From Polytrichum commune (taxonomy: Eukaryota > Streptophyta > Polytrichopsida > Polytrichales > Polytrichaceae): a stretch of 64,000 nucleotides of DNA. Below, in pieces: positions 41,181-51,611 of this stretch; the first letter of the stretch is position 1, and each line of letters opens with the position of its first letter. Where the stretch lies: positions 13,302,501-13,366,500 of the forward strand of contig OX485805.1 of assembly GCA_950295325.1 (NCBI GenBank), written 5' to 3'. The notes under the pieces are model-generated. The model worked only from the letters and a program-made list of their open reading frames with translations. It did not search any database and had not been told where the DNA came from. The position numbers and the translations under genes are program-made.

Positions 41181-41634
41181 TTGGACTTCAAATTATGCCT
41201 CGGAGGCAAGGATATTGTCTTAGGAGGTTTTTGCAATGTGGATTGAGTGGGAGATGCAAACAATTGGCGATCCACCACGGGGTACGTATTTTTTGTTGGC
41301 GTCGGAATCATTTCATGGAAATGCAAGAAACAACCAGTCATTGTATTGTCTACAACGGAGGCGGAGTACATGGCTACTACACCATTGTACTAAGGAAACG
41401 GTTTGGCTTCGGCAACTTTTGGTGGATGTGGGATATGTGCACGAAGGACCAACATCCATCATGTGTGACAATCAAGAATGCATAGCACTTGGAAATAAAC
41501 CCATACACCATTCTTGCACCAAACATATTGATGTACAACATCACTTCATTAGAGAGAAACTAGAAAACCAAGATATATGTTTGAAGTATTGTCCTACGGA
41601 GGATATGATAGCGGATGTGCTAACCAAACCACTT
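41181..41634 (+). pseudogene. Ty1/copia pol remnant (RNase H end), interrupted
   Basis: Shows the end of a copia polyprotein: [42 protein letters not shown], and TEDMIADVLTKPL, the RNase H landmarks in order. It carries an in-frame stop near 41249 and a frameshift near 41385, so it was dead or dying. The frame is cut after ...TKPL at 41634 by the gypsy insertion and continues at 51506. No 5' portion of the copia element is visible to the left. Confidence 0.85.
41631..41634. repeat. Target-site duplication ACTT, left copy
   Basis: ACTT at 41631-41634 is repeated at 51506-51509 immediately outside the other end of the retrotransposon. Joining the copia sequence across one copy restores the copia frame, which supports a real insertion duplication despite its shortness. 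Confidence 0.7.
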
Positions 41635-41741
41635 TGTCGTGTAAACTAAGATCGTTAAACACAACAGATCGAGTGTCGGCGTCAACATCAATTAGCAAAA
41701 TAAAATAGCAAACTAAAATGCTAAACAACCACCTCTTCAAG
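41635..41741 (-). repeat. Terminal repeat part B2 (outer 3' end of element)
   Basis: A 107-bp segment that ends the element in the sense direction (…ACACGACA) and directly abuts the host ACTT. It is identical by eye to B1 at 42176-42282 and directly follows A2. There is no copy of B next to A1 at the other end of the element. Confidence 0.88.
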
Positions 41742-42173
41742 ATGAGGGTTTCTCTCTCCAAGCTTAAGAAACTAAAATGTCTCCTTACAAAGCTTAAGAA
41801 ACTCTAAAATTCACACACAAGAGTCAAGCTATCTCTCACTCCACGAAGGGAGAATCCAAGAGTGCAAGTGGTGGAGAAAGAATGCAAAGGCTTTACTCAT
41901 AATCTACTACACCATAGCCATGAGAAAGCAACAACAAGCTCTCTTTCTCTCAAAACACACTCACAAGACTTGACTTGACAACAATGGCAAGTCAAGAGGC
42001 CTTCCTCTCCATACAACCCCAATCCTATGTGGAGTTCATCCATGGAGTGGATGAACAACTAACTAGGACTCCCAATGGAGTCCGTTACTCATCCCAACAC
42101 ACATGGACTCCTAGTGGAGTCCATTTACTCCTAAATCGACGTGACTTAGCCCCCGATATCACCTCACGTGACA
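41742..42173 (-). repeat. Terminal repeat part A2 (3' copy)
   Basis: A 432-bp segment, identical by eye to A1 (51074-51505) except position 42158 (A) versus 51490 (G). The sense strand starts TGTCACGTGAGG and ends AACCCTCAT. It contains a hairpin with 9-bp arms CTTGACTTG/CAAGTCAAG at 41969-41996. An 81-residue-type frame inside is shared by both copies and is not credited. Confidence 0.93.
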
Positions 42174-42175
42174 GC

Positions 42176-42282
42176 TGTCGTGTAAACTAAGATCGTTAAA
42201 CACAACAGATCGAGTGTCGGCGTCAACATCAATTAGCAAAATAAAATAGCAAACTAAAATGCTAAACAACCACCTCTTCAAG
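42176..42282 (-). repeat. Terminal repeat part B1, inner copy
   Basis: A second 107-bp copy of B between the candidate PPT and A2. It is separated from A2 by GC only, giving the perfect palindrome GACAGCTGTC at the B1/A2 junction. This looks like the two element termini (GACA and TGTC) joined through 2 bp. Confidence 0.88.
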
Positions 42283-42292
42283 TGCCCCCACT
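42283..42292 (-). other. Candidate polypurine tract
   Basis: The sense strand reads AGTGGGGGCA directly upstream of B1 (preceded by GGAGGGGCTCC 12-20 bases further up). Its place at the start of B1 argues that plus-strand DNA synthesis begins with B, so that the RT-made terminal repeat would be B-GC-A. There is no purine tract directly upstream of A2. Confidence 0.45.
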
Positions 42293-42607
42293 AGCAGATA
42301 AGGAGCCCCTCCAATCGGCTAGGAACAAACACACTCATCGGTAGAGTTGTTGAACATGATGAAGTTGTTGCTACATCTATACATATTCAATTGGGTAGTG
42401 GTAATCTAGGGAATTAAACTCATGATTGAGAAAGTAATCGAAGAACTATAGGCTGGGTGCAATTTGAGCCCCATCCTTAATCGCCTTCAACCATTTATGT
42501 TGAATTCTTGGATAACTCTTTCAATGTGATTTTCAATCCCATAAAATTTCCAACCAACTAAATAATAACTTCACCACTAAAACATGTGGTAAACATCCAC
42601 AAAATCC

Positions 42608-43363
42608 TCAATCATGACCATTAACGGCCACAGAATGAGAGGCTTTCCGACAACGAGGACAAACCCAATTGCCAGAATGAAGAGTCAAAAGGGGAGGTGT
42701 CAAACATGCCATGTGCCATCCACGTTGACATTGGTCGCACAATAACATTGTTGCAGCTCCTTTCTTCTCTCCACAAACATAACAAGGCAAACCCTGTGGT
42801 ACAACCGCCAACTCGGGTTGCACAGAGCCGTCGATGGGAAGGTGACATGGAGCACAATTCTTTGAATGCTCACGACATTCCCGTCCATCCTTGTCTTCAA
42901 GCAATAATATACCACTTGGCAAGACATATTTTACCCGCAAAATCGTGCGCCCAACCTTAACATCCAATGTCGTAGGCGCCTTCCGTTGCAAGTAAACATA
43001 ATCCCCCTTGGAAAATCTACGAACCTGAGGTCGATAAGCTCCACTGCGGATCCGGGCATACCGTAATGTATCACGATGTTGAGCAATATTTAAGTTCTCT
43101 ATAGCCATAGGCATGGCCTTTTGGAAGAACGTTGCTCGGTCATGAAGACATTGAGCCCAAACATCTGGATCATCCAAGTTTACCACAGGAGCCAATTTCT
43201 CTTGCACCGAGCTAGGTAAAATTGGTTCCCGTCCATATAAGAGTTGGTAATGACTATAAGATGCCAAAGATGCTTGCCTGTTGAAACGATAACCCATTGC
43301 TATCCATGGTAACATCAAGTCCCAATCGCGATGGTTGCCATGAAGCAATCCATACTTCCGCAA
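42608..43363 (-). CDS. Integrase C-terminal region with PHD finger
   Basis: A 251-residue frame continuing the integrase frame after an in-frame UGA at 43390-43388. Residues 1-170 are the usual post-catalytic integrase region (RDWDLMLPWIAMGYRF, HYQLLYGREP, FSKGDYVYLQRKAP). Residues 194-238 form a complete C4HC3 PHD finger: C194, C197, C209, C212, H217, C220, C235 and C238, with the conserved Trp in GNWVCPRC. PHD fingers read histone H3 tails. The LLCDQC..GWH..CL pattern resembles readers of unmodified H3K4 such as ATXR5/6-type fingers, which is inference. It occupies the place where chromoviruses carry a chromodomain, so a role in target-site choice is likely. ORF end: TGA-type stop at 42608, about 325 bp before B1. 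Confidence 0.88.
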   Translation of the reverse strand: MRKYGLLHGNHRDWDLMLPWIAMGYRFNRQASLASYSHYQLLYGREPILPSSVQEKLAPVVNLDDPDVWAQCLHDRATFFQKAMPMAIENLNIAQHRDTLRYARIRSGAYRPQVRRFSKGDYVYLQRKAPTTLDVKVGRTILRVKYVLPSGILLLEDKDGRECREHSKNCAPCHLPIDGSVQPELAVVPQGLPCYVCGEKKGAATMLLCDQCQRGWHMACLTPPLLTLHSGNWVCPRCRKASHSVAVNGHD

Positions 43364-43387
43364 ACCGCGTTTAACCGTCTGAACAAC

Positions 43388-44674
43388 TCATTCAGCTAAG
43401 CCATCTGCCTCAGGGTGATTTCTGGAAGTTGTCCGATGATCAATCAAAGCCTTGGTACACAAAGCCTCGAAAGATCCAAGGAATTCTCTCCCTTGATCCG
43501 TCAACACCTCTGCAGGTGCTCCAAACCGTGCCAAAACTCGATCAAGAAATGCCATAGCCGCCAATTCTGAGGAATTTTGGGGAAGAGCTACGAGTTCAAT
43601 CCACTTACTAAAATGCTCCACCATCACAAGCACATACTTGGAACCACGTGGAGTGATAGTAAGCGGTCCGGCAAAATCCAAAGACCAACGATATCCCAAG
43701 CCCATAATAGGTAAAGGCTGAAGTTGAGGTGACAAAGTGTTAAAACTTGACCTGATCCGGTCACATATTTCACACCGAGAAACATAAGTGGCAACCTGTT
43801 GATACATACCAGTCCACCAATATTGGTTGCGCAACATAGAGTGCGTCCTTCGCACTCCAAAATGTCCAAGCTCCTCGTGCACTTGCCGCACCAAAGAAGC
43901 TCTTTGATCTGGCCTTGGAACGATGCGTCTCGTTCCGTTCGGCCACACACGAAATAACAAGCTGTTTGCCCAACGAAACCTTGTTATCCGGTGACTAACT
44001 CTATCTCGCTTCATAGCAGATAGTCCAAGAAGAAATATCCCGTGTTGAAGTTTGTGCAAGACCGCCTGGTCTTCCCACACATCACTAACAACGAGAGATT
44101 TATCAACCTCCTCATCTTGTTCTTTTACAAGGATCTTAGCAGCTAATCCCGATATCATTGTGAGATATGTGGCAGCATGCCAACCCGGAACTGCCTCACG
44201 ATCACAATTTCCATGCCACCTGGCTCCAGTTAAATCCTCATTTGAAGGACTTGGATTGCGAGACAATCCGTCTGCATCCAAGTTGGCAATTCCTGCTCGG
44301 TGAACAACTTCAAAATCATATTCCTGAAGTAACAATGCCCACCTAGCCAGTTTCCCGGTGAGTTTATCTAATTCCATAAGCCATTTTAAAGGCTGATGAT
44401 CAGTCACCAAAGTAAATTTTTGCCCATACAAATAAGGTCGAAAATGTGCAATGGTCCAAACGGCCGCCAAGGCCTCGCCTTCATAAGAAGAATAATTAGA
44501 TTCAGCACTATTATTGCTTCTAGATGCATAAGCCACCACATATTCCTTTCCCTCTTCATCCTTCTGTGTCAATACCGCTCCCAATCCCACTGCACTCCAA
44601 TCCGTGTGCAATTGAAAAGCTCTAGACACATTCGGGCGTCGAAGCACTGGCGCTGAACCGAGCCTCTGCTTCAA
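43388..44674 (-). CDS. Retrotransposon RNase H and integrase core
   Basis: A 428-residue frame, in the same frame as the RT upstream (split from it by UAG at 44713-44711). RNase H spans about 20-140 with D25 (HTDWS), E65 (YEGEA) and D92 (TDHQPL), and ends near DADGLSR. The integrase zinc domain has H266, H271, C301 and C304. The catalytic core has D333 (SLDF), D393 (LTDQG) and E428 (GLAE), giving DD35E spacing exactly. The frame stops one codon after the catalytic Glu at UGA where Arg is usual (AER), consistent with CGA to TGA. Without readthrough the integrase lacks its C-terminal part. Confidence 0.92.
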   Translation of the reverse strand: MKQRLGSAPVLRRPNVSRAFQLHTDWSAVGLGAVLTQKDEEGKEYVVAYASRSNNSAESNYSSYEGEALAAVWTIAHFRPYLYGQKFTLVTDHQPLKWLMELDKLTGKLARWALLLQEYDFEVVHRAGIANLDADGLSRNPSPSNEDLTGARWHGNCDREAVPGWHAATYLTMISGLAAKILVKEQDEEVDKSLVVSDVWEDQAVLHKLQHGIFLLGLSAMKRDRVSHRITRFRWANSLLFRVWPNGTRRIVPRPDQRASLVRQVHEELGHFGVRRTHSMLRNQYWWTGMYQQVATYVSRCEICDRIRSSFNTLSPQLQPLPIMGLGYRWSLDFAGPLTITPRGSKYVLVMVEHFSKWIELVALPQNSSELAAMAFLDRVLARFGAPAEVLTDQGREFLGSFEALCTKALIDHRTTSRNHPEADGLAE

Positions 44675-44710
44675 TGTATCAAATGTCTGTTGTTGTTCCC
44701 GACTCCAAAT

Positions 44711-45688
44711 CTATGGTTGGTCTTTCCCCGTGAGAATGGTAAGAGGTTTGGCAATCAAACTAAAGTTTTTGACAAACCTCCTATAATAATTTGCCAATCC
44801 TAGAAATGCACGAAGCCGTGGTACATCACTAGGTGCGGGAATTTTGTGCAAAGCATCTACCTTCGCCTGTTGCACACCAAGACCGCCAGGAACAATCATG
44901 TGGCCTAAATAGGGCAATTGATCATGGAAAAACTTACATTTTCCATGTTGTAAACGGAGTCCCCACCGTTGAAGTCGTTCAAATACCGCTTGCAAATATC
45001 TCACATGATCCTGTAGACTATTACTAAAGATGATAACATCATCAATGTAACATCTAGCAAACGGCAAACCAGCCAATAATTGGTCCATCACCCGCTGAAA
45101 TTCAATTGGTGCATTCTTGAGACCAAATGGCAGAAATTTCCAATGATAAAGTTGATCCTTGCCATCTTTATCAATTCTCCAAAATGCGGTTTTCACCCGA
45201 TCACCCAACAACAAAGGTAATTGGTGATAACCAGACCTCAAATCCAGAGTGCTGAAGATTCTAGAAAATCCCAGTGCATCAAACAACTCCTCCGGCATCG
45301 GCATTGGATATCGATCCGACTTGGTCTTGCGGTTGACTGGACGATAATCACCACACATCCGTTTTTCCGTCCAGTTGCCAAATATATCCTTCTTTGACGG
45401 CATAACCGTGGCACAAGCATACTCTCCATTGGAGAGTTCAATCAATTCCGCTGCCAATAACTCTTGACATCGAGTTTGAACACCCAACCTTTCAGAGGTA
45501 CTAAGTCTGTACGGCCGTCTGAAAATAAGGTGGTCGTCCTCGAGTTGAATACGAACAGGTTTACCTTTATATCCTTCAAGATCATGAAGACTAAAGGCAA
45601 AACAATTACGGTAAAAGCGAATAAATGTCCGTGCATTCGTGCTTCGGCACCAGTAAGTTTGGCCCCACTTCAATTGGCCAATCGTCAA
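44711..45688 (-). CDS. Retrotransposon reverse transcriptase
   Basis: Ty3/gypsy reverse transcriptase. Landmarks in order: IFRRPYRLS (55-63), MCGDYRPVNRKT (111-122), FSTLDLRSGYHQ (145-156, with the first catalytic Asp), FLPFGLKNAP (185-194), YIDDVIIFS (214-222, the catalytic Asp pair), YLGH and the LRAFLGLANYYRRF connection region. The annotated Met is only where this frame opens. The upstream protein continues in another frame (residues like VGPNLLVPKHE), so a one-base indel lies near 45640-45655. UAG at 44713-44711 separates it from RNase H in the same frame. Confidence 0.93.
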   Translation of the reverse strand: MTIGQLKWGQTYWCRSTNARTFIRFYRNCFAFSLHDLEGYKGKPVRIQLEDDHLIFRRPYRLSTSERLGVQTRCQELLAAELIELSNGEYACATVMPSKKDIFGNWTEKRMCGDYRPVNRKTKSDRYPMPMPEELFDALGFSRIFSTLDLRSGYHQLPLLLGDRVKTAFWRIDKDGKDQLYHWKFLPFGLKNAPIEFQRVMDQLLAGLPFARCYIDDVIIFSNSLQDHVRYLQAVFERLQRWGLRLQHGKCKFFHDQLPYLGHMIVPGGLGVQQAKVDALHKIPAPSDVPRLRAFLGLANYYRRFVKNFSLIAKPLTILTGKDQP

Positions 45689-45749
45689 ACTCCGTGGTTT
45701 CCTTCTTTAAAGAAGGATTGCCACTTGGTACCAGCATAGCCTGTGATTG

Positions 45750-46280
45750 CTAGTCCGTGGAGAGGGCAACACCTTTGCCCCCATCATCTGCACTTGAATC
45801 CAAATGCGTATCTTCTCCACTACAATCAGTTTGTGTAGCTAAATAGCTACCCACATATGAAGTATCACCAAGAAATAGAAGTGGAAACATTTTATGGACC
45901 TTCAACTTCCCAAACTCTTGGGCCAAAGCCGAAAAAACACGTTGGGCTCGAAGCTCTTCCGCAACATGAAGTTTCAAAGGAAATAATTCCTCGGTGTCAT
46001 TGACCTCAATATGACCCTTGGATTGCGGCTCCATTGCCCCCTGACCATTGTTCTCTGTCCTCAGAGTAAGCAATTGGTCATCCATACGTTGTTGAGCAGC
46101 AAGACAAATTCCAATTATCCACACAATGCTATTAAGATCCATAGCTTGTCCCAATAGGAAACGTCTCTGACCTTCCTGAAGCCCGTGAGCAGCCGTGGTA
46201 CCTGTAAGAAAACCCATGGCGCGTTCCCGCTCATCTGCCGTAGGCTCCTCATAAGTTTGGAATTTTGAATCCCAAACCAT
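45750..46280 (-). CDS. C-terminal part of the methyltransferase plus linker
   Basis: Same frame as the protease-methyltransferase frame, separated by one UGA at 46298-46296. Residues 14-25 (PTADERERAMGF) match cytosine-5 methyltransferase motif IX and residues 43-50 (LGQAMDLN) match motif X (usual LGNA..). The methyltransferase therefore extends past the stop. Residues ~60-176 are a hydrophilic linker towards reverse transcriptase with no recognised domain. It ends at UAG 45752-45750. The same frame then continues for about 45 codons towards the RT before the frameshift. Confidence 0.75.
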   Translation of the reverse strand: MVWDSKFQTYEEPTADERERAMGFLTGTTAAHGLQEGQRRFLLGQAMDLNSIVWIIGICLAAQQRMDDQLLTLRTENNGQGAMEPQSKGHIEVNDTEELFPLKLHVAEELRAQRVFSALAQEFGKLKVHKMFPLLFLGDTSYVGSYLATQTDCSGEDTHLDSSADDGGKGVALSTD

Positions 46281-46295
46281 GCCAGGTCCACGAAA

Positions 46296-48167
46296 TCAAA
46301 ATGCAAAAGACTGTGGATATGTCACAAAAGTAGGTAGTGCACCTCTCGGAATGCCCACCTTGTTAATTAATGCAAATGGCAAGGTGTCATCTTTGGTAAC
46401 TGCCAAGGAAACACGATGATCATCTAAAATGTCATCCACCTTGCGATCCATAAGGCGGGGAATGCGGGGAATGCGGGCAATCGCCGCTGAAAGCACCCGA
46501 GGTGATACCAAGTTGGTCCAAAACCAACGAGGCCGATGAGCAAAGGATCCCAAAGATGCAGCATCCAGAAATGTTGGAGTACCCAGAATTTGGTTAATGT
46601 ACTCACCATCCTTCACCACTTTGTGCCAGGTATCACCCAATAATGGTACATTTTCGAAAATGTACCCTGGCGGAGTTGATTGGTGGGTAAACCACCATTG
46701 CGTCAATCGCGTCAAATCCGCAAACAAACTAGACCTAGGATCATCCAATCCCTGGCCAGTTCCTGCCCGCGAATGGCCTTGACAAGGCCATCCTGCAATA
46801 ATCAAATCCACGTGGCCCAACCTTCTCAAATCCTCATCACTAATCATAGTGACATCTTGAGGAAATTGACCACAACATCCATGAATGGTAGAGGCTGACA
46901 ATTGTGCGGGGTACCTCAACAACAATTGTTGGATGTGGTGTCGGACGGCTCTGTTGGCTGCATACCCATTGTTCACATGAATATATCGCCAAACTGTAAT
47001 TCCAGCTTCCAACACTGCCGCCAAACATGTGCCAATGCCTCCAAAGATCTCCACAAGGACAATACCTTCAGGTGACGGTTGCCAATGAATGGGTTGAGCA
47101 AAAGAAAATGAGGATGAAGTTGGAGGTGCCTCTCCAAGCTCCAAATCCGCTATAATGTGTTGACAATGGTCGGATAACTCCTTAGGAGTTCGCCATGGTG
47201 GAGGTGGATCCTTGAAATGTCGAGCAGGAATTTGAAAAGATGGTAAAAATTGTTGTTCTGCCGCATTACAAATGTAGTCCATTGTTTCCTCCAATAAAAC
47301 TGGAGCACAATGCAAATCTGCAACTGAACCGCTGCAACCAAACATTGCCTCCGCAACCATAGTCATAGCAGGGGCTGCAAATGTGACGGGAATAAATACC
47401 TTCCTGCCATCTCCAGTGGACCATCCCGGTCTAATCCATGCCTCTTCCGTCCAATTATCCAAACCAAAGCCAAGTGGGTAAAGAGCTTGCTGACCAACAA
47501 GTATATCATAGTTGGTAGCATTAGTAACAACACACTTCATTGATAAATGAGTATAAGTAGGCCCTGCCCCCACATGAAAAATCAAACGTAGAGGTGCCTT
47601 GGTGTAACCTGTTGCACGTTCAGTGCCCCCTACTGAAGTCACAATAGTAAATGGACAAGGATCCAAGCTTGCTGGCGTCAATCCAAGACTGTCAGCAAGT
47701 CCTTTGTCAATCATAACCGGTTGAGCACCGGAATCCATCATAACTCTCAGTGGTGTAGCACGGATAGTGGGCATATCCGTGCGTGAAACGACAAACAGAG
47801 ATTTGTCGTTCATCAACCGTACAACTCCAGGTTGCAAATTATGGCGTTCGCGAGCAAGCCTTGCAGAAATGTCTGCAAGATATGCCGCTCCCGAAGCATA
47901 ATTCGAAAATGACGTATCCACTGCTAAAATTGATGCTGGAGGAATATCAGCTTGCTTACCAAAAGCAATGATCGCCGCATCCGCAAGACTCGCTCGCAAA
48001 TTGGCTAAGTCCTCCACCTCCTCAGCCACAGGTACGTCAACCACAGCTTGGGATACTTGAAGGAATGGCAAATCCGCCTTACCTTCTAACATTCTCCCAG
48101 CTAAATGAAAAACTGCAGCAGGCTTGAAATCCGAAGCCATAAACTCCGAACCCGAGAAAATTGGCAT
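46296..48167 (-). CDS. Aspartic protease fused to DNA cytosine-5 methyltransferase
   Basis: A 623-residue frame continuing the gag frame after a single UAG. Residues ~130-235 are a retroviral-type aspartic protease with the active-site DSGA at 145-148. Residues ~365-623 are a cytosine-5 DNA methyltransferase: motif I EIFGGIGT (373-380, cofactor binding), motif IV GWPCQGHSRAG (459-469) with catalytic Cys462, the following GLDDPRSSLF, motif VI FENVP (504-508) and motif VIII-like HRPRWFWTN (544-552). Motifs IX and X follow after an in-frame UGA. The product would methylate cytosine in DNA. No target-recognition assignment is possible by eye. It sits between protease and reverse transcriptase inside pol, so it would be made with the polyprotein. 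Which host methyltransferase family it came from is unresolved: VWRYI and YIFENV recall DNMT3-like, while PCQGHS is closer to Dcm/DNMT1-like. Confidence 0.9.
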   Translation of the reverse strand: MPIFSGSEFMASDFKPAAVFHLAGRMLEGKADLPFLQVSQAVVDVPVAEEVEDLANLRASLADAAIIAFGKQADIPPASILAVDTSFSNYASGAAYLADISARLARERHNLQPGVVRLMNDKSLFVVSRTDMPTIRATPLRVMMDSGAQPVMIDKGLADSLGLTPASLDPCPFTIVTSVGGTERATGYTKAPLRLIFHVGAGPTYTHLSMKCVVTNATNYDILVGQQALYPLGFGLDNWTEEAWIRPGWSTGDGRKVFIPVTFAAPAMTMVAEAMFGCSGSVADLHCAPVLLEETMDYICNAAEQQFLPSFQIPARHFKDPPPPWRTPKELSDHCQHIIADLELGEAPPTSSSFSFAQPIHWQPSPEGIVLVEIFGGIGTCLAAVLEAGITVWRYIHVNNGYAANRAVRHHIQQLLLRYPAQLSASTIHGCCGQFPQDVTMISDEDLRRLGHVDLIIAGWPCQGHSRAGTGQGLDDPRSSLFADLTRLTQWWFTHQSTPPGYIFENVPLLGDTWHKVVKDGEYINQILGTPTFLDAASLGSFAHRPRWFWTNLVSPRVLSAAIARIPRIPRLMDRKVDDILDDHRVSLAVTKDDTLPFALINKVGIPRGALPTFVTYPQSFAF

Positions 48168-48179
48168 ATGGAGAATTTT

Positions 48180-49856
48180 CTATGCCAATGTCTGCGTAAC
48201 ATCCTTCGAGATGGAATCCCCATCTCTCAAAGGTACAGGGTTTTTAACCCCAACAACAGTGGTGTCTACCAATCCAAATGAAAAAGGTAAATGTGCTTGA
48301 CCAATTTGATCAGTTGGTCCGGCATGGCGAGGATGTAGCACCTCGTTGCTACCACCACTCGTGGAAGCCACCGCATCTGCCAATGTTTGTGAGCGAGTAG
48401 AAGCCGCCGCCATCACCTCTCCGGCTGCTCCAAACATATACATGTCTGAACCCGAGGTGCCACCACCCACATGCGGCTCAGAAATTTGAGCAAAAGATGC
48501 AGAAGATTTGAGCTTTTGCTCAAGCTCTGCCACCTTAGCCTCAAGACTCTGCTCCCTTGGAGACTTTCCAGTGACATAACTGGCAGGCCGCATCTCAGGA
48601 TGAAGTTGGAAACAATGATCCACATCGTGATTAGTGCCACCACAATGGCTACATTTCAATTGTCTCTTCTTAGAATTGTCCCCTGCCCTTACTGGTTCCA
48701 TCTTTTGTTTTAATTTTCCCAAAGGCTGAGTTTTCTTCTTCTTAGGACAATTGGGATCATTCTTCGAATGACCAGCTTCTTCACAACCCCAACAATGCAA
48801 AATCTTTTGCTCCTTGACGGGTTGAGTCTCAGCTAAACTACTAGTAGCTGTGACAATTCTTCTTGGTTTCGGACTCTCTGTCATCCAAGATACCATATCC
48901 GTGGCATCATGTTGGCAAAGAGCCCGATCACATCTTTCAACCACGGCAAACGCTTGTGCAAGCGTAGCTCGGTCCTCGTAGTCGAGGATAATCCGAGGTG
49001 ATGCCAACTCAAGTAGCCGCTTGTCAATCTTAGACAAAAAGATTTTAACAAGCTGACTCTCAGCAAAAACACCTCCCGACTCCACAGCAAATTGCGCGAG
49101 TCGCGTATACATGGTCCGTGGAGTATCATCCTTCTCTCGGCGGAAATCCTGGATGCGCTGCATCTGGTCTCGCCGAAACCCACCATACTCCACTTCCAAA
49201 TGTGCGACAAATTCAATAAGGGGGTTAAACGGAGGTGGTGGACCAACAACCGTCAATGCTGCTTGTGTAGCACGTGCCACCCGTGAAAGGGTTGCCGTGC
49301 TACTGCTAGCCACCATTGGCCCAAGTGCCAGTTCCGTGTCCTTAGACTCCGCCGGCGATTCCTCCTCCTTTAAGGTAGGTGGAGCTAAGGTAGCAACCGC
49401 CCCATCCTTAAGGGCTGAAATGAGCTCAACCCGAGCCTCCCAATACTGCTCCACCTCCCGAAGTTGTCGCTGATGACCCTCTGTCCAGCGTTCATAAGTT
49501 TGGAGTGCCTCATACTCCAAATGTTGGGGCAGAAGTTCAAAGGCATACCAATCATTGAAATTGGAAGACCTTTGGCGTTTCTCCTTAATCCAGGTACGAA
49601 ACCGGAGTTTCCAATCGGGCAAGGAAATGCCCCCAGCTCGACCTGAAAACCGATCACGCACTGAATTGTGGCGATCGTCCTCCATTTCGTCGAACGTGCC
49701 GACACTCCAAATCCGAAGCCTACTAGTAGTGTCCAACGCCGAAATAGGCTCAAAAGCCTCGTTGGTATCTACCTTTGGCTCAAGATTTGTGGTATGCACG
49801 TCCTCCAAGTAATCTGGTGATGGAGATCGATAATATCGGCTCCTAGTTTGCACCAT
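48180..49856 (-). CDS. Retrotransposon Gag with two zinc knuckles
   Basis: A 558-residue frame, the only intact large one. It starts MVQTRSRYYRSPSPDYLEDV. A helical capsid-like region spans about 210-330 (FVAHLEVEYGG, TRLAQFAVES, LVKIFLSKIDKRLLEL). Two CCHC zinc knuckles follow: C355, C358, H363, C370 and C402, C405, H410, C415. A coiled-coil-like segment is near 435-455. It forms the particle that packages element RNA. It ends in UAG at 48182-48180. The protease frame continues in the same frame four codons later, so gag-pol may be made by stop-codon readthrough as in murine leukaemia-type retroviruses, rather than by frameshift. Confidence 0.9.
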   Translation of the reverse strand: MVQTRSRYYRSPSPDYLEDVHTTNLEPKVDTNEAFEPISALDTTSRLRIWSVGTFDEMEDDRHNSVRDRFSGRAGGISLPDWKLRFRTWIKEKRQRSSNFNDWYAFELLPQHLEYEALQTYERWTEGHQRQLREVEQYWEARVELISALKDGAVATLAPPTLKEEESPAESKDTELALGPMVASSSTATLSRVARATQAALTVVGPPPPFNPLIEFVAHLEVEYGGFRRDQMQRIQDFRREKDDTPRTMYTRLAQFAVESGGVFAESQLVKIFLSKIDKRLLELASPRIILDYEDRATLAQAFAVVERCDRALCQHDATDMVSWMTESPKPRRIVTATSSLAETQPVKEQKILHCWGCEEAGHSKNDPNCPKKKKTQPLGKLKQKMEPVRAGDNSKKRQLKCSHCGGTNHDVDHCFQLHPEMRPASYVTGKSPREQSLEAKVAELEQKLKSSASFAQISEPHVGGGTSGSDMYMFGAAGEVMAAASTRSQTLADAVASTSGGSNEVLHPRHAGPTDQIGQAHLPFSFGLVDTTVVGVKNPVPLRDGDSISKDVTQTLA

Positions 49857-51057
49857 AAAATAATCACTTGAGTACCTGCAACTATCTACAAGGTAATGGC
49901 AACCTGCACTTGTTGCGGGCTATCTAAATGGCAATCCCTTGCCAAATGCCAAGTGTTTATGCCCCCAGAATTCCAAAATTGTGCAAAGGTTTGAGATTGG
50001 TAATTAAAATGAAAAATCAGCGTTGAAAAGGCTCATTTCCAAGGTGATTATGGACTCCAATCAACAAACTAAGTGCACCAATGGACTCCTAGGAAGATTT
50101 CACACAAATTAGGCTCAAATTTCACTCCGTTCGGAGTTAATTTGCTCCCAAAAACAAAAATCAGCGTTGAAATTAATAATTTCAGCAATGATTTTGAATT
50201 CCAATCAACAATCCAATTACACCATTGGATTCCTTGGCAAATTTTACACAAGATAGGCTCAAATTTCACTCCAATCGGAGCTAGTATGCCCCCAAATTTG
50301 AACCTCAAAGTTGTGAGAGTCAAATGCCAAGTATGAAAGGGGAAAGTAAAAATGTGAAAATAAAAGTAAAAAATACTATAAAAAAATTTTAAAAATAAAA
50401 AATAAAGGGTTTTTTTAATAAATAAACCAAAAAAACAAAATAAAAACAAAAAATAAAAACAAACAAACAAAAACAAACAAACAAAAAAAACAAAAAAAAC
50501 AAAGGTAAGCTTAGCTTACCTTAAGTAAGGCCTAAGCCAGCCAGGCTTGGCCGGCGTCCGCCCGCCGGTGGGGCCCGGCCGACGCCCGCCCGCCTGGCCC
50601 GCTCCCACCTGGCCGCGGGGCCCGGCTGGCGCCCGCCCGCCCCCGGCCCGGGATTTGGCCGCCCCCGGGGTGCAGAATTGGAGCTCCAAGAGCTCCAAGA
50701 GCTCCAAGAGTGTCCGTGGAGCTCCGGAGCTCAAAAAAAAAATTATATAAAAAAATTTTAAGTTTGGTTTGTGTTTGTTTGTAAATTTAAGAAAAAATAA
50801 ACTTTGCTTTTACAAATTGCAAGCAAGAATGATGTGACTTGAGAATCTTGAGACCAAATGGAATCTCAAGATTCAACCATCAACACTTGAAGAAAACACA
50901 AAGAGACAACAAAAGAAAAATGGGAAGATTTCTCTCAAAATCTTCTTGAGGGTTGCAAGAAATGACAAACTAAGCTTTCAAACACTTGTATCACTCATTT
51001 GCTCTCAATACTGGGCCATTCTAGCTCAGAAATACAACCAAAAAATGAAAAATTTGA
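49857..51057 (-). other. Long 5' leader of the retrotransposon
   Basis: About 1.2 kb between the putative PBS and gag. It holds a diverged tandem repeat with a ~144-bp period (about 50010-50300; TCAGCGTTGAAA and TCCAATCAACAA recur), an A-rich block with AAAACAAAC-type repeats (50340-50505) and a sharply bounded GC-rich block (50535-50730) ending in four AGAGCTCCA-like units. Probably packaging or translation-control RNA structure. No protein is credited here. Confidence 0.55.
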
Positions 51058-51073
51058 GCCATTGTTGTCAAGT
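51058..51073 (-). promoter_or_regulatory. Putative self-priming primer-binding site
   Basis: The sense strand reads ACTTGACAACAATGGC directly after A1. It is a perfect 16-nt complement to GCCATTGTTGTCAAGT inside A (sense; plus-strand 51305-51320 in A1 and 41973-41988 in A2). It does not resemble the tRNA-iMet site TGGTATCAGAGC. The arrangement matches self-primed Tf1/sushi-type elements, where the 5' end of the RNA folds back to prime. Confidence 0.65.
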
Positions 51074-51505
51074 ATGAGGGTTTCTCTCTCCAAGCTTAAG
51101 AAACTAAAATGTCTCCTTACAAAGCTTAAGAAACTCTAAAATTCACACACAAGAGTCAAGCTATCTCTCACTCCACGAAGGGAGAATCCAAGAGTGCAAG
51201 TGGTGGAGAAAGAATGCAAAGGCTTTACTCATAATCTACTACACCATAGCCATGAGAAAGCAACAACAAGCTCTCTTTCTCTCAAAACACACTCACAAGA
51301 CTTGACTTGACAACAATGGCAAGTCAAGAGGCCTTCCTCTCCATACAACCCCAATCCTATGTGGAGTTCATCCATGGAGTGGATGAACAACTAACTAGGA
51401 CTCCCAATGGAGTCCGTTACTCATCCCAACACACATGGACTCCTAGTGGAGTCCATTTACTCCTAAATCGACGTGACTTAGCCCCCGATGTCACCTCACG
51501 TGACA
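51074..51505 (-). repeat. Terminal repeat part A1 (5' end of element)
   Basis: A 432-bp copy of A that begins the element in the sense direction (TGTCACGTG) directly inside the host ACTT. It should contain the promoter: a weak TATA-like TTGTATGG lies about 27 bases upstream of the PBS-complementary segment, as expected if RNA starts at that segment. It is followed directly by the PBS instead of by B. Confidence 0.92.
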
Positions 51506-51611
51506 ACTTGCAAAGGATAGGCATCAAACATTGTCAAATGCAGTGGGTTTAGAAGCCTTTGACTACTCGCAAAGTGGGAGTGTAGAAGGTAGAGCATTAG
51601 ATTGTTCGTAG
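51506..51611 (+). pseudogene. Copia pol C-terminal end, continuation after the insertion
   Basis: Reads on from 41634 in frame: AKDRHQTLSNAVGLEAF follows TKPL, the usual end of copia polyproteins, and stops at TAG 51609-51611. The purine tract AAAGTGGGAG (51571-51580) precedes TGTAGAAGG, the expected PPT/3' LTR border. Confidence 0.82.

Follow-up and report, generated by a model that had tools for sequence, protein, structure and literature searches.

A Ty3/gypsy retrotransposon of Polytrichum commune carries a DNA cytosine-5 methyltransferase (DNMT) domain between its protease and its reverse transcriptase (RT). The copy described here was confirmed in the window, the 64,000-nucleotide stretch of genomic DNA that was analysed. 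The DNMT lies at the end of ORF1 (Gag-PR-DNMT), ahead of a UAG stop of predicted leaky type, an arrangement newly found here.

Anatomy of the element

The window copy has termini of the form TGTCACG..ACGACA and is flanked on both sides by AAGT (41631-41634 and 51506-51509). It is larger than the span 45750..48167 of the original prediction. Its features are as follows.

41635..51505, minus strand: whole retrotransposon copy, in the order A1 - ORF1 - UAG - ORF2 - B1 - A2 - B2
51074..51505, minus strand: A1, left terminal segment and 5' end of the element, 432 nt, 99.8% identity with A2
48180..49856, minus strand: Gag part of ORF1, with a premature stop at its end in the window copy
47100..48167, minus strand: aspartic protease region, DSGA at 47724-47735 (PF13650, E 8e-5, 23.7 bits, narrowly missing the cut-off of 24.3)
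46050..47087, minus strand: DNMT3-like C5-methyltransferase domain (PF00145), with one premature stop in the window copy
45744..45752, minus strand: UAG CAA UCA, a TMV-type leaky stop motif dividing ORF1 (Gag-PR-DNMT) from ORF2 (RT-RH-IN-PHD)
44711..45688, minus strand: reverse transcriptase (PF00078, E 3e-30)
43388..44674, minus strand: RNase H, integrase zinc-binding region and DDE core (PF17917, 5e-38; PF17921, 4e-18; PF00665, 2e-14)
42608..43363, minus strand: integrase C-terminus and PHD finger, the latter at 42650-42784 (PF00628, 8e-11)
42176..42282, minus strand: B1, right-end segment repeated internally, 107 nt, 100% identity with B2
41742..42173, minus strand: A2, left-end segment repeated internally
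41635..41741, minus strand: B2, right terminal segment

The order RT - RNase H - integrase with a DDE core, which defines Ty3/gypsy elements, was found by Pfam in the open reading frames scanned. The Gag region displays two zinc-knuckle-like motifs (48753-48794 and 48612-48653); in the open-frame copy P0001 the zf-CCHC match has an E value of 0.0038, below the Pfam cut-off. The PHD finger and the split terminal repeats, both part of the original prediction, are confirmed in the window copy. The predicted span does hold the DNMT together with the protease, but not in one open reading frame: a premature stop divides it into two open reading frames, 46296-48167 and 45750-46280. This in-frame stop falls within the DNMT, after motif VIII and ahead of motif IX, and makes the window copy a dead one. 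Copies with open frames, unlike that of the window, are present elsewhere in the genome.

The methyltransferase domain

Every motif named in the original prediction was found on the minus strand of the window copy: motif I LVEIFGG (47037-47057), motif IV PCQGHS (46770-46787), motif VI FENVP (46644-46658), a motif VIII-like HRPRW (46524-46538), motif IX ERERAMGF (46209-46232) and motif X LGQAMDL (46134-46154). They are in order, and all are downstream of the protease DSGA. A Pfam search of the frame, proposed as a possible refutation, was significant: the open reading frame 46296-48167 scores 43.3 bits with PF00145 (cut-off 22, E 4.1e-11); the scores of three open frames of ORF1, including a partial one, are 45.2-46.0 bits.

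Motif IV with its catalytic cysteine is present in 26 of the 27 loci examined, ENV and HRPR in all 27, and motif I in 26, the exception being a partial locus. This retention argues against a domain that no longer methylates DNA and serves Gag as a nucleic-acid-binding or RNA-methylating part. In favour of such a role, de Mendoza et al. (2018; PMC5890265) observed no DNA activity for the enzymes of Klebsormidium nitens and of SymbioLINE, and suggest an RNA substrate for the LINE. We regard it as the least probable of the functional alternatives considered here.

The closest solved C5 enzymes in a PDB profile search by sequence are DNMT3A (E 2.3e-12) and DNMT3B (2.5e-11). Next come 4ONJ, entered as 'DNA methyltransferase' and which we take to be a DRM (3.6e-7), HaeIII (4.6e-6), HhaI (2.7e-5) and DRM2 (2.6e-4). 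In a fold search with a predicted model of pLDDT 54, all 50 matches listed are DNMT3 entries; a single-sequence fold of the window piece gave a pLDDT of 35. The domain therefore resembles the DNMT3A/B catalytic domain, its top PDB match by sequence and fold, with which it also shares an unrearranged motif order. It differs in its low identity, 18-22% in the fold alignments listed, and in motif IV, which reads GWPCQGHS in the element and GGSPCNDLS in DNMT3A/B.

A DRM-type enzyme was rejected, as the element does not have the rearranged motif order (VI-VIII before I-IV) that is present in the host's own DRM-like gene. A chance match of motifs was likewise rejected on the Pfam score, the PDB profile and the conserved copies. 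Six distant phage enzymes were found in a viral_contigs search, matching at 30-44% over 39-112 residues, by motif patterns that favour phage enzymes. DNMT3A is ahead of these six for all four queries, but by only 2.2 bits for locus L015 (37.2 vs 35.0) and 0.5 bits for L039 (36.5 vs 36.0); for these two the distance to the phage enzymes barely exceeds that to DNMT3A, and a bacterial or phage origin of the domain is conceivable. No host DNMT3 gene was recognised among the scored matches of the genome search (149 matches, one place followed up); that place, C2:4703600, has the motif order of a DRM.

Copies and lineages

The union of both searches gives 206 distinct methyltransferase places in the genome, at least one of which is a host gene. 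PF00145 is above its cut-off at all 123 scored places, one of them the host DRM-like gene. The DNMT piece matches 148 scored places, and 100 of these have no internal stop. Of the 123 scored RT places, 105 are preceded on their own strand by a DNMT place, at a distance of 0.8-3.5 kb; the other 18 are without a listed DNMT. A third lineage, represented by L039, comes from a metagenome bin, apparently as eukaryotic contamination, and the DNMT is at the same position in all three lineages.

A retrotransposon-encoded methyltransferase kept across many element copies is thus supported. An artefact, or the private capture of a host or bacterial methyltransferase gene by the window copy alone, has only the broken state of that copy in its favour; it is refuted by the genomic places, by the DNMT alongside most scored RT places and by the site shared between lineages, and its probability is negligible.

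Open reading frames and the UAG stop

In copies with long open frames, ORF1 consists of Gag, protease and DNMT, and ORF2, after the UAG, of RT-RH-IN-PHD. The methyltransferase had been placed inside pol. Its location between protease and RT is correct, but in these copies it shares one open reading frame with Gag and protease.

In all 20 copies examined from this genome, and in L039 as well, an in-frame UAG-CARYYA separates the DNMT from the RT. This motif matches exactly the TMV-type leaky stop context, UAG CAR YYA (PMC2754532), but is here situated in a retrotransposon, behind a methyltransferase. Leaky stops between GAG and POL are called very rare in LTR elements (PMC3441728). Readthrough of the UAG is inferred from the conserved motif, and because this motif lies between DNMT and RT, the DNMT is expected at the Gag level and not at that of Pol. 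A specific and cheap prediction follows from it, namely that the methyltransferase is a Gag-level component of the particle.

Selection on the methyltransferase

Within one subfamily the DNMT displays a dN/dS of 0.185-0.189 (two pairs, dS 0.23), and the ORF1 tail of the same pairs one of 0.74-0.80. Between lineages the DNMT values are 0.11-0.16 where dS could be computed, dS being saturated, and RT-RH is far more constrained, at 0.05-0.06. A very close pair, L015-L009, gives 0.77 for the DNMT (dS 0.020). These ratios are simple counts, given without a statistical test; the range of 0.11-0.19, with one close pair at 0.77, points to purifying selection on the domain.

The PHD finger

Among the best 60 of 83 matches to the PHD finger, CHD4 and KAT6A are at the top, PHF21A, ATXR5, UHRF1, AIRE and BAZ2A/B are included, and neither ING nor BPTF is found. 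Fingers that read unmodified H3 are among those matched. By similarity, the integrase PHD finger may resemble readers of unmodified H3K4, and it could direct new insertions towards chromatin that lacks H3K4 methylation.

Split repeats and integration

Two identical flanking LTRs are not found; a split layout takes their place. Repeats are arranged as A-int-B-A-B in 8 of 11 copies and as A-int-B in the other 3, and all 11 have a 4-bp target duplication, read by eye from the flanks, and TGTCACG..ACGACA ends. In the window element the B1/A2 junction is the palindrome GACAGCTGTC. The A-int-B-A-B layout is that of PAT elements. DIRS/PAT elements, however, are defined by a tyrosine recombinase and the lack of target duplication, whereas the present element has a DDE integrase and duplicates its target; no tyrosine recombinase was found in the element open reading frames scanned, the integrase there being PF00665. 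The repeats are thus DIRS-like, yet the ends and 4-bp duplications fit the action of a DDE integrase. This combination is a second oddity of the element, unexplained by standard models of reverse transcription.

The repeat halves are nearly identical, with 11 changes in the eight copies compared, a number too small for inference on methylation from their sequence context. CpG observed/expected ratios are 0.57-0.72 in pieces of six copies and 0.27-0.63 in eight 8-kb blocks of the window, with no clear signal.

Possible functions

Transposons are the usual targets of cytosine methylation. The present element appears to be built to write this mark, and self-methylation is a plausible role for the DNMT and the likeliest one. 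It is proposed that the catalytic domain, of DNMT3 type, is an ancient acquisition of a Ty3/gypsy family and that purifying selection retains it. The main ORF1 product would be Gag-protease-DNMT, and a fraction of ribosomes, judging by the conserved motif, would pass the UAG and add the RT-RNase H-integrase-PHD extension. The methyltransferase would be packed at the Gag level into every particle, the site of reverse transcription, and there would most likely methylate the element's own cDNA or a fresh insertion, with the PHD finger possibly directing integrase to chromatin free of H3K4 methylation. Writer and reader would jointly put a new copy into silent chromatin at once, which would reduce harm to the host and hide the copy. 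For the proposal as a whole, from the old capture to the steering by the PHD finger, we consider the chances about even.

An extended form of the proposal is tentative and rather doubtful. The element would represent a rebuilt de novo silencing machine, with a Gag-level DNMT3 writer and an H3K4me0-type PHD reader, whose new copies would enter H3K4-unmethylated chromatin in pre-methylated form. It would use an end-to-end junction (the palindrome) with a DDE integrase, unlike the standard LTR route, and the family would be common to streptophytes, from Klebsormidium to land plants.

The DNMT might instead act on the genome and not on cDNA, such that established copies silence sister copies and competing elements, controlling copy number and sparing the host. 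The 206 places and the constraint on the domain suit a shared trans-acting function, and a slowing of retrotransposition is named as an option by de Mendoza et al. (PMC5890265). The position in a Gag-protease polyprotein suggests the particle as the site of action, however, and a trans-acting silencer would be hard to maintain by selection on single copies, so that this alternative is judged unlikely.

Protection of cDNA would draw on an anatomy identical to that used for the main proposal: methylated cytosines would withstand host nucleases, deaminases or the sensing of unmethylated foreign DNA. We know of no host defence of this kind among early land plants, which counts against this role. 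It was put forward for SymbioDIRS, but elements without a DNMT thrive in the genomes studied in the same work (PMC5890265), and we deem it improbable.

With self-methylation as the preferred role, the approximately two hundred copies, many of them open-framed, and with near-identical repeat halves in the eight compared, offer a direct test of methylation at birth and of why selection keeps it.

Comparison with known elements

The literature was searched for bryophyte DNMT-bearing elements, PHD fingers on integrases, split repeats on Gypsy elements, leaky stops and moss DNMT3. No report of a DNMT-bearing element in a land plant was found among the titles and abstract openings covered, subscription journals being mostly outside the search. 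As the original prediction recognised, the principle is already known, from KnitGypsy-Dnmt3 of the green alga Klebsormidium nitens and from dinoflagellates.

KnitGypsy-Dnmt3 is described as having Gypsy domains, a Dnmt3 and DIRS-like repeats (de Mendoza et al., 2018, PMC5890265, Fig. 4 legend), all of which the present element shares. Compared by description, the present element differs in being many-copied, in a DNMT that closes ORF1 before a UAG, in its integrase PHD and in 4-bp duplications; K. nitens is said to carry fewer copies than Symbiodinium (PMC5890265). On their described architecture, the two perhaps represent one lineage. The PHD finger and split repeats had been considered an undescribed pair. 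Split repeats are known for KnitGypsy-Dnmt3, but the pair itself may stand, as neither 'PHD' nor 'readthrough' is mentioned in the main text of PMC5890265. No activity of the K. nitens enzyme was seen in yeast, a result its authors call inconclusive, and K. nitens copies bear CHH/CHG methylation (PMC5890265). As other silent elements there carry it too, methylation of copies alone is no proof of self-methylation.

SymbioDIRS-Dnmt3 of Symbiodinium likewise has a polyprotein that holds Dnmt3 and RT, with A and B repeat sets, and in yeast its enzymes are reported to methylate CG (PMC5890265, section 10). It integrates by a tyrosine recombinase, in contrast to the DDE integrase and target duplications of the present element. 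SymbioLINE-Dnmt is also a retrotransposon carrying a methyltransferase, but it is a LINE with an endonuclease among its domains, and its DNMT is described as of an orphan class. The Polytrichum element extends this phenomenon, previously described in a green alga and in dinoflagellates, to a land plant.

The window element and its relatives

The DNA carries one methyltransferase-bearing Ty3/gypsy copy:

41635–51505, minus strand: retrotransposon copy, flanked by AAGT on either side

In its own sense, the element reads A1 (432 nt), Gag, aspartic protease, C5-methyltransferase (DNMT), reverse transcriptase (RT), RNase H (RH), integrase (IN), PHD finger, B1 (107 nt), A2 and B2, A and B being terminal repeat segments. 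The methyltransferase motifs named in the original prediction are all found, in correct order, and with PF00145 the open reading frame reaches 43.3 bits, where 22 is the cut-off. This copy is dead, because its coding region is broken into several open reading frames. The repeat halves are 99.8% identical (1 of 539 bases differs), and in view of this near-identity despite the broken frames, the copy was probably mobilised recently in trans by proteins from other copies.

The leader between A1 and Gag contains a tandem pair of a 144 nt unit (50006–50293, 77% alike), and a similar pair of ∼140 nt (80%) is found in all six copies of the type with a 1386-codon ORF1. A GC-rich leader stretch followed by T-rich low-complexity runs lies at 50430–50700. 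At 41236–41649 (plus strand), an open reading frame has a translation that looks like the final part of a Ty1/copia RNase H, and the element seems to have landed in an old copia remnant.

The domain is not confined to this copy. In the 408 Mb genome (64 contigs), PF00145 matches at a minimum of 123 places (123 of 123 scored; 352 first-look candidates). The window DNMT piece, used as query, matches at least 148 (148 of 148 scored; 517 candidates), and at least 100 of these have a stop-free matched piece. Pooled, the searches give at least 206 distinct places, not inspected singly, of which at least one is a host gene. Among 123 scored RT places (2066 candidates), at least 105 have a DNMT place 0.8–3.5 kb upstream on the same strand, with start-to-start differences of 1.15–2.65 kb; for the remaining 18, no DNMT is among the matches listed, from which it may simply be missing. 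A private insertion of host sequence, the reading that would have undone the original prediction, is thus not what the genome displays. One PF00145 place, C2:4703606 (locus L051), has motifs VI–VIII upstream of I–IV, the DRM order, and is a DRM-like host gene.

Open reading frames and a predicted leaky stop

Ten copies, selected for long open frames, were fetched for architecture. ORF1 spans 1360–1386 codons from stop to stop and holds Gag, protease and DNMT; ORF2 (RT-RH-IN-PHD) comes after a stop, and in L011, L017 and L025 this second frame is either interrupted or shifted out of frame. ORF1 terminates in UAG in nine copies, followed by CAAUCA (six) or CAAUUA (three). L025, the tenth copy, meets another stop just ahead through a minor frame change but retains UAG CAAUUA. 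The UAG-CARYYA motif is also found at the DNMT/RT boundary in 9/9 further loci, L032 and the best PF00145 matches L001–L008 (once as CAGUUA), and in the window copy, for a total of 20/20 distinct copies examined. UAG followed by CAR YYA is a TMV-type leaky stop, and readthrough of the TMV sequence in plants has been measured at 32% (PMC2754532). The stop and hexamer stand out in their retention because the adjoining ORF1 tail, directly upstream, is poorly conserved (30–43% identity between lineages, dN/dS 0.36–0.55). If functional, the motif would supply DNMT with every Gag, and RT, integrase and PHD finger solely via readthrough.

A third lineage, L039, has UAG CAAUCA between a Gag-PR-DNMT frame (PR, protease; Gag partial) and an in-frame RT. 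It is the sole confirmed match in the prokaryote genome collection, where its contig belongs to an uncultured isolate that bears the label Synechococcales cyanobacterium. The same assembly has five more RT matches on other contigs, and the two inspected (L041, L042) resemble, by eye, gypsy-type eukaryotic polyproteins. Because these contigs look like eukaryotic LTR retrotransposons, the source of L039 is probably eukaryotic contamination of the bin.

The methyltransferase domain

A ten-copy profile against the PDB ranked DNMT3A top (2.3e-12), then DNMT3B and 3C, 4ONJ (3.6e-7; presumably a DRM), HaeIII and HhaI. A model of the L039 domain was of moderate quality (pLDDT 54, pTM 0.60; alignment of seven rows, element and phage sequences); the 50 fold matches listed, out of 111 at E ≤0.001, are without exception entries for DNMT3A, 3B or 3C, in some cases together with DNMT3L. 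Element HRPRW(I/F)WTNL aligns to DNMT3A HRARYFWGNL. DNMT3A outscores phage C5 enzymes, a set drawn from a motif-biased scan, for four of four queries, narrowly for two. A DRM-type identity is ruled out by the unrearranged motif order. From the profile ranking, fold matches, motif order and phage comparison, the predicted enzyme is called DNMT3-like, a class by resemblance and not origin. Phage enzymes L033–L038 and the element enzyme have in common a long motif IV block, IAGWPCQG.S..G..LGLDDPRS, reflecting either convergence or distant kinship.

Across 27 loci, entered by best scores or long frames and so not a random sample, motif IV with the catalytic Cys is retained in 26, motif I in 26, ENV and HRPR in all, and motif X in 22, the other five being truncated, broken or altered there. 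DNMT protein identity is 62–65% between two own-genome subfamilies and 64–68% to L039. By simple pairwise counts, without significance test, DNMT dN/dS is 0.185 (dS 0.23) for L021–L023, a pair of one subfamily; the same pair gives 0.74 for the ORF1 tail, 0.68 for the Gag linker and 0.42 for the protease region, at smaller dS (0.02–0.09). Between lineages, values are 0.11–0.16 for DNMT in four pairs, at near-saturated dS (a fifth gave no value), and 0.05–0.06 for RT-RH. A counter-example is the very close pair L015–L009 (dS 0.02), with DNMT dN/dS 0.77. We judge it likely that the domain in open-frame copies is an active methyltransferase.

Termini and repeats

All 11 copies (window plus ten) start with TGTCACG, end with ACGACA and have 4 bp target duplications, as read by eye from the flanks. 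The arrangement is A-int-B-A-B in eight, where int is the coding interior, and A-int-B in three (L009, L011, L021). All eight copies of the former kind contain the B1/A2 junction GACAGCTGTC, which is absent from the 3′ pieces of 3/3 of the latter; these three (L009/L010, L011/L012, L021/L022) stop after B1 yet have proper 4 bp duplications. The short form may have arisen from a circle with a single repeat or by deletion. Both forms would be expected if a circular or end-joined intermediate were cut at the B/A junction. In L013/L014, a ∼130 nt segment is duplicated within A1 and also within A2; a change in one half was therefore copied into the other. The A-int-B-A-B layout is that of DIRS/PAT elements, which differ in using a tyrosine recombinase where this element has a DDE integrase.

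PHD finger and a working model

The nearest solved PHD fingers, among the matches listed, are those of CHD4, KAT6A, PHF21A, PHF12, DPF2/3, lid/KDM5, ATXR5, KMT2C/D, UHRF1, AIRE and BAZ2. Many of these bind unmodified H3, and the chromodomain of chromoviruses occupies the same place as the element's finger. A reader-writer pairing of PHD finger and DNMT is suggested because DNMT3A's own ADD domain likewise reads unmodified H3K4. Gag-PR-DNMT would build the particle, readthrough would append RT-RH-IN-PHD, the DNMT would methylate cDNA or the new insertion, and the PHD finger may steer integration; we give this model as a whole an even chance.

Relation to known elements

DRM is described as restricted to streptophytes (PMC12344493). 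The moss Physcomitrella has host DNMT3 genes (PMC6453930), and a moss would therefore have had a DNMT3 donor. In the literature searched, as far as its available text extends, no report was found of a DNMT-bearing retrotransposon in a land plant, a leaky stop behind an element-borne DNMT, or target duplications on split-repeat elements. The pairing of PHD finger with split repeats, of which the original prediction knew no example, may be new in part: split repeats are already described, and no PHD finger on a DNMT-bearing element was found in the same literature.

The principle, as that prediction had cautioned, is already known, even to the repeat oddity. A 2025 paper reports DNMT3 members in 'LTR Copia and DIRS' elements of streptophytes and dinoflagellates (PMC12344493), whereas the element here has a Gypsy domain order. 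SymbioDIRS-Dnmt3 enzymes produced CG methylation in yeast; the Klebsormidium nitens enzyme produced none, an inconclusive result (PMC5890265). KnitGypsy-Dnmt3 of K. nitens has Gypsy domains, a Dnmt3 within the Pol polyprotein that is under purifying selection, and DIRS-like repeats (de Mendoza et al., 2018; PMC5890265). Compared by description, it and the moss element may well share a common descent, a reading towards which we lean.
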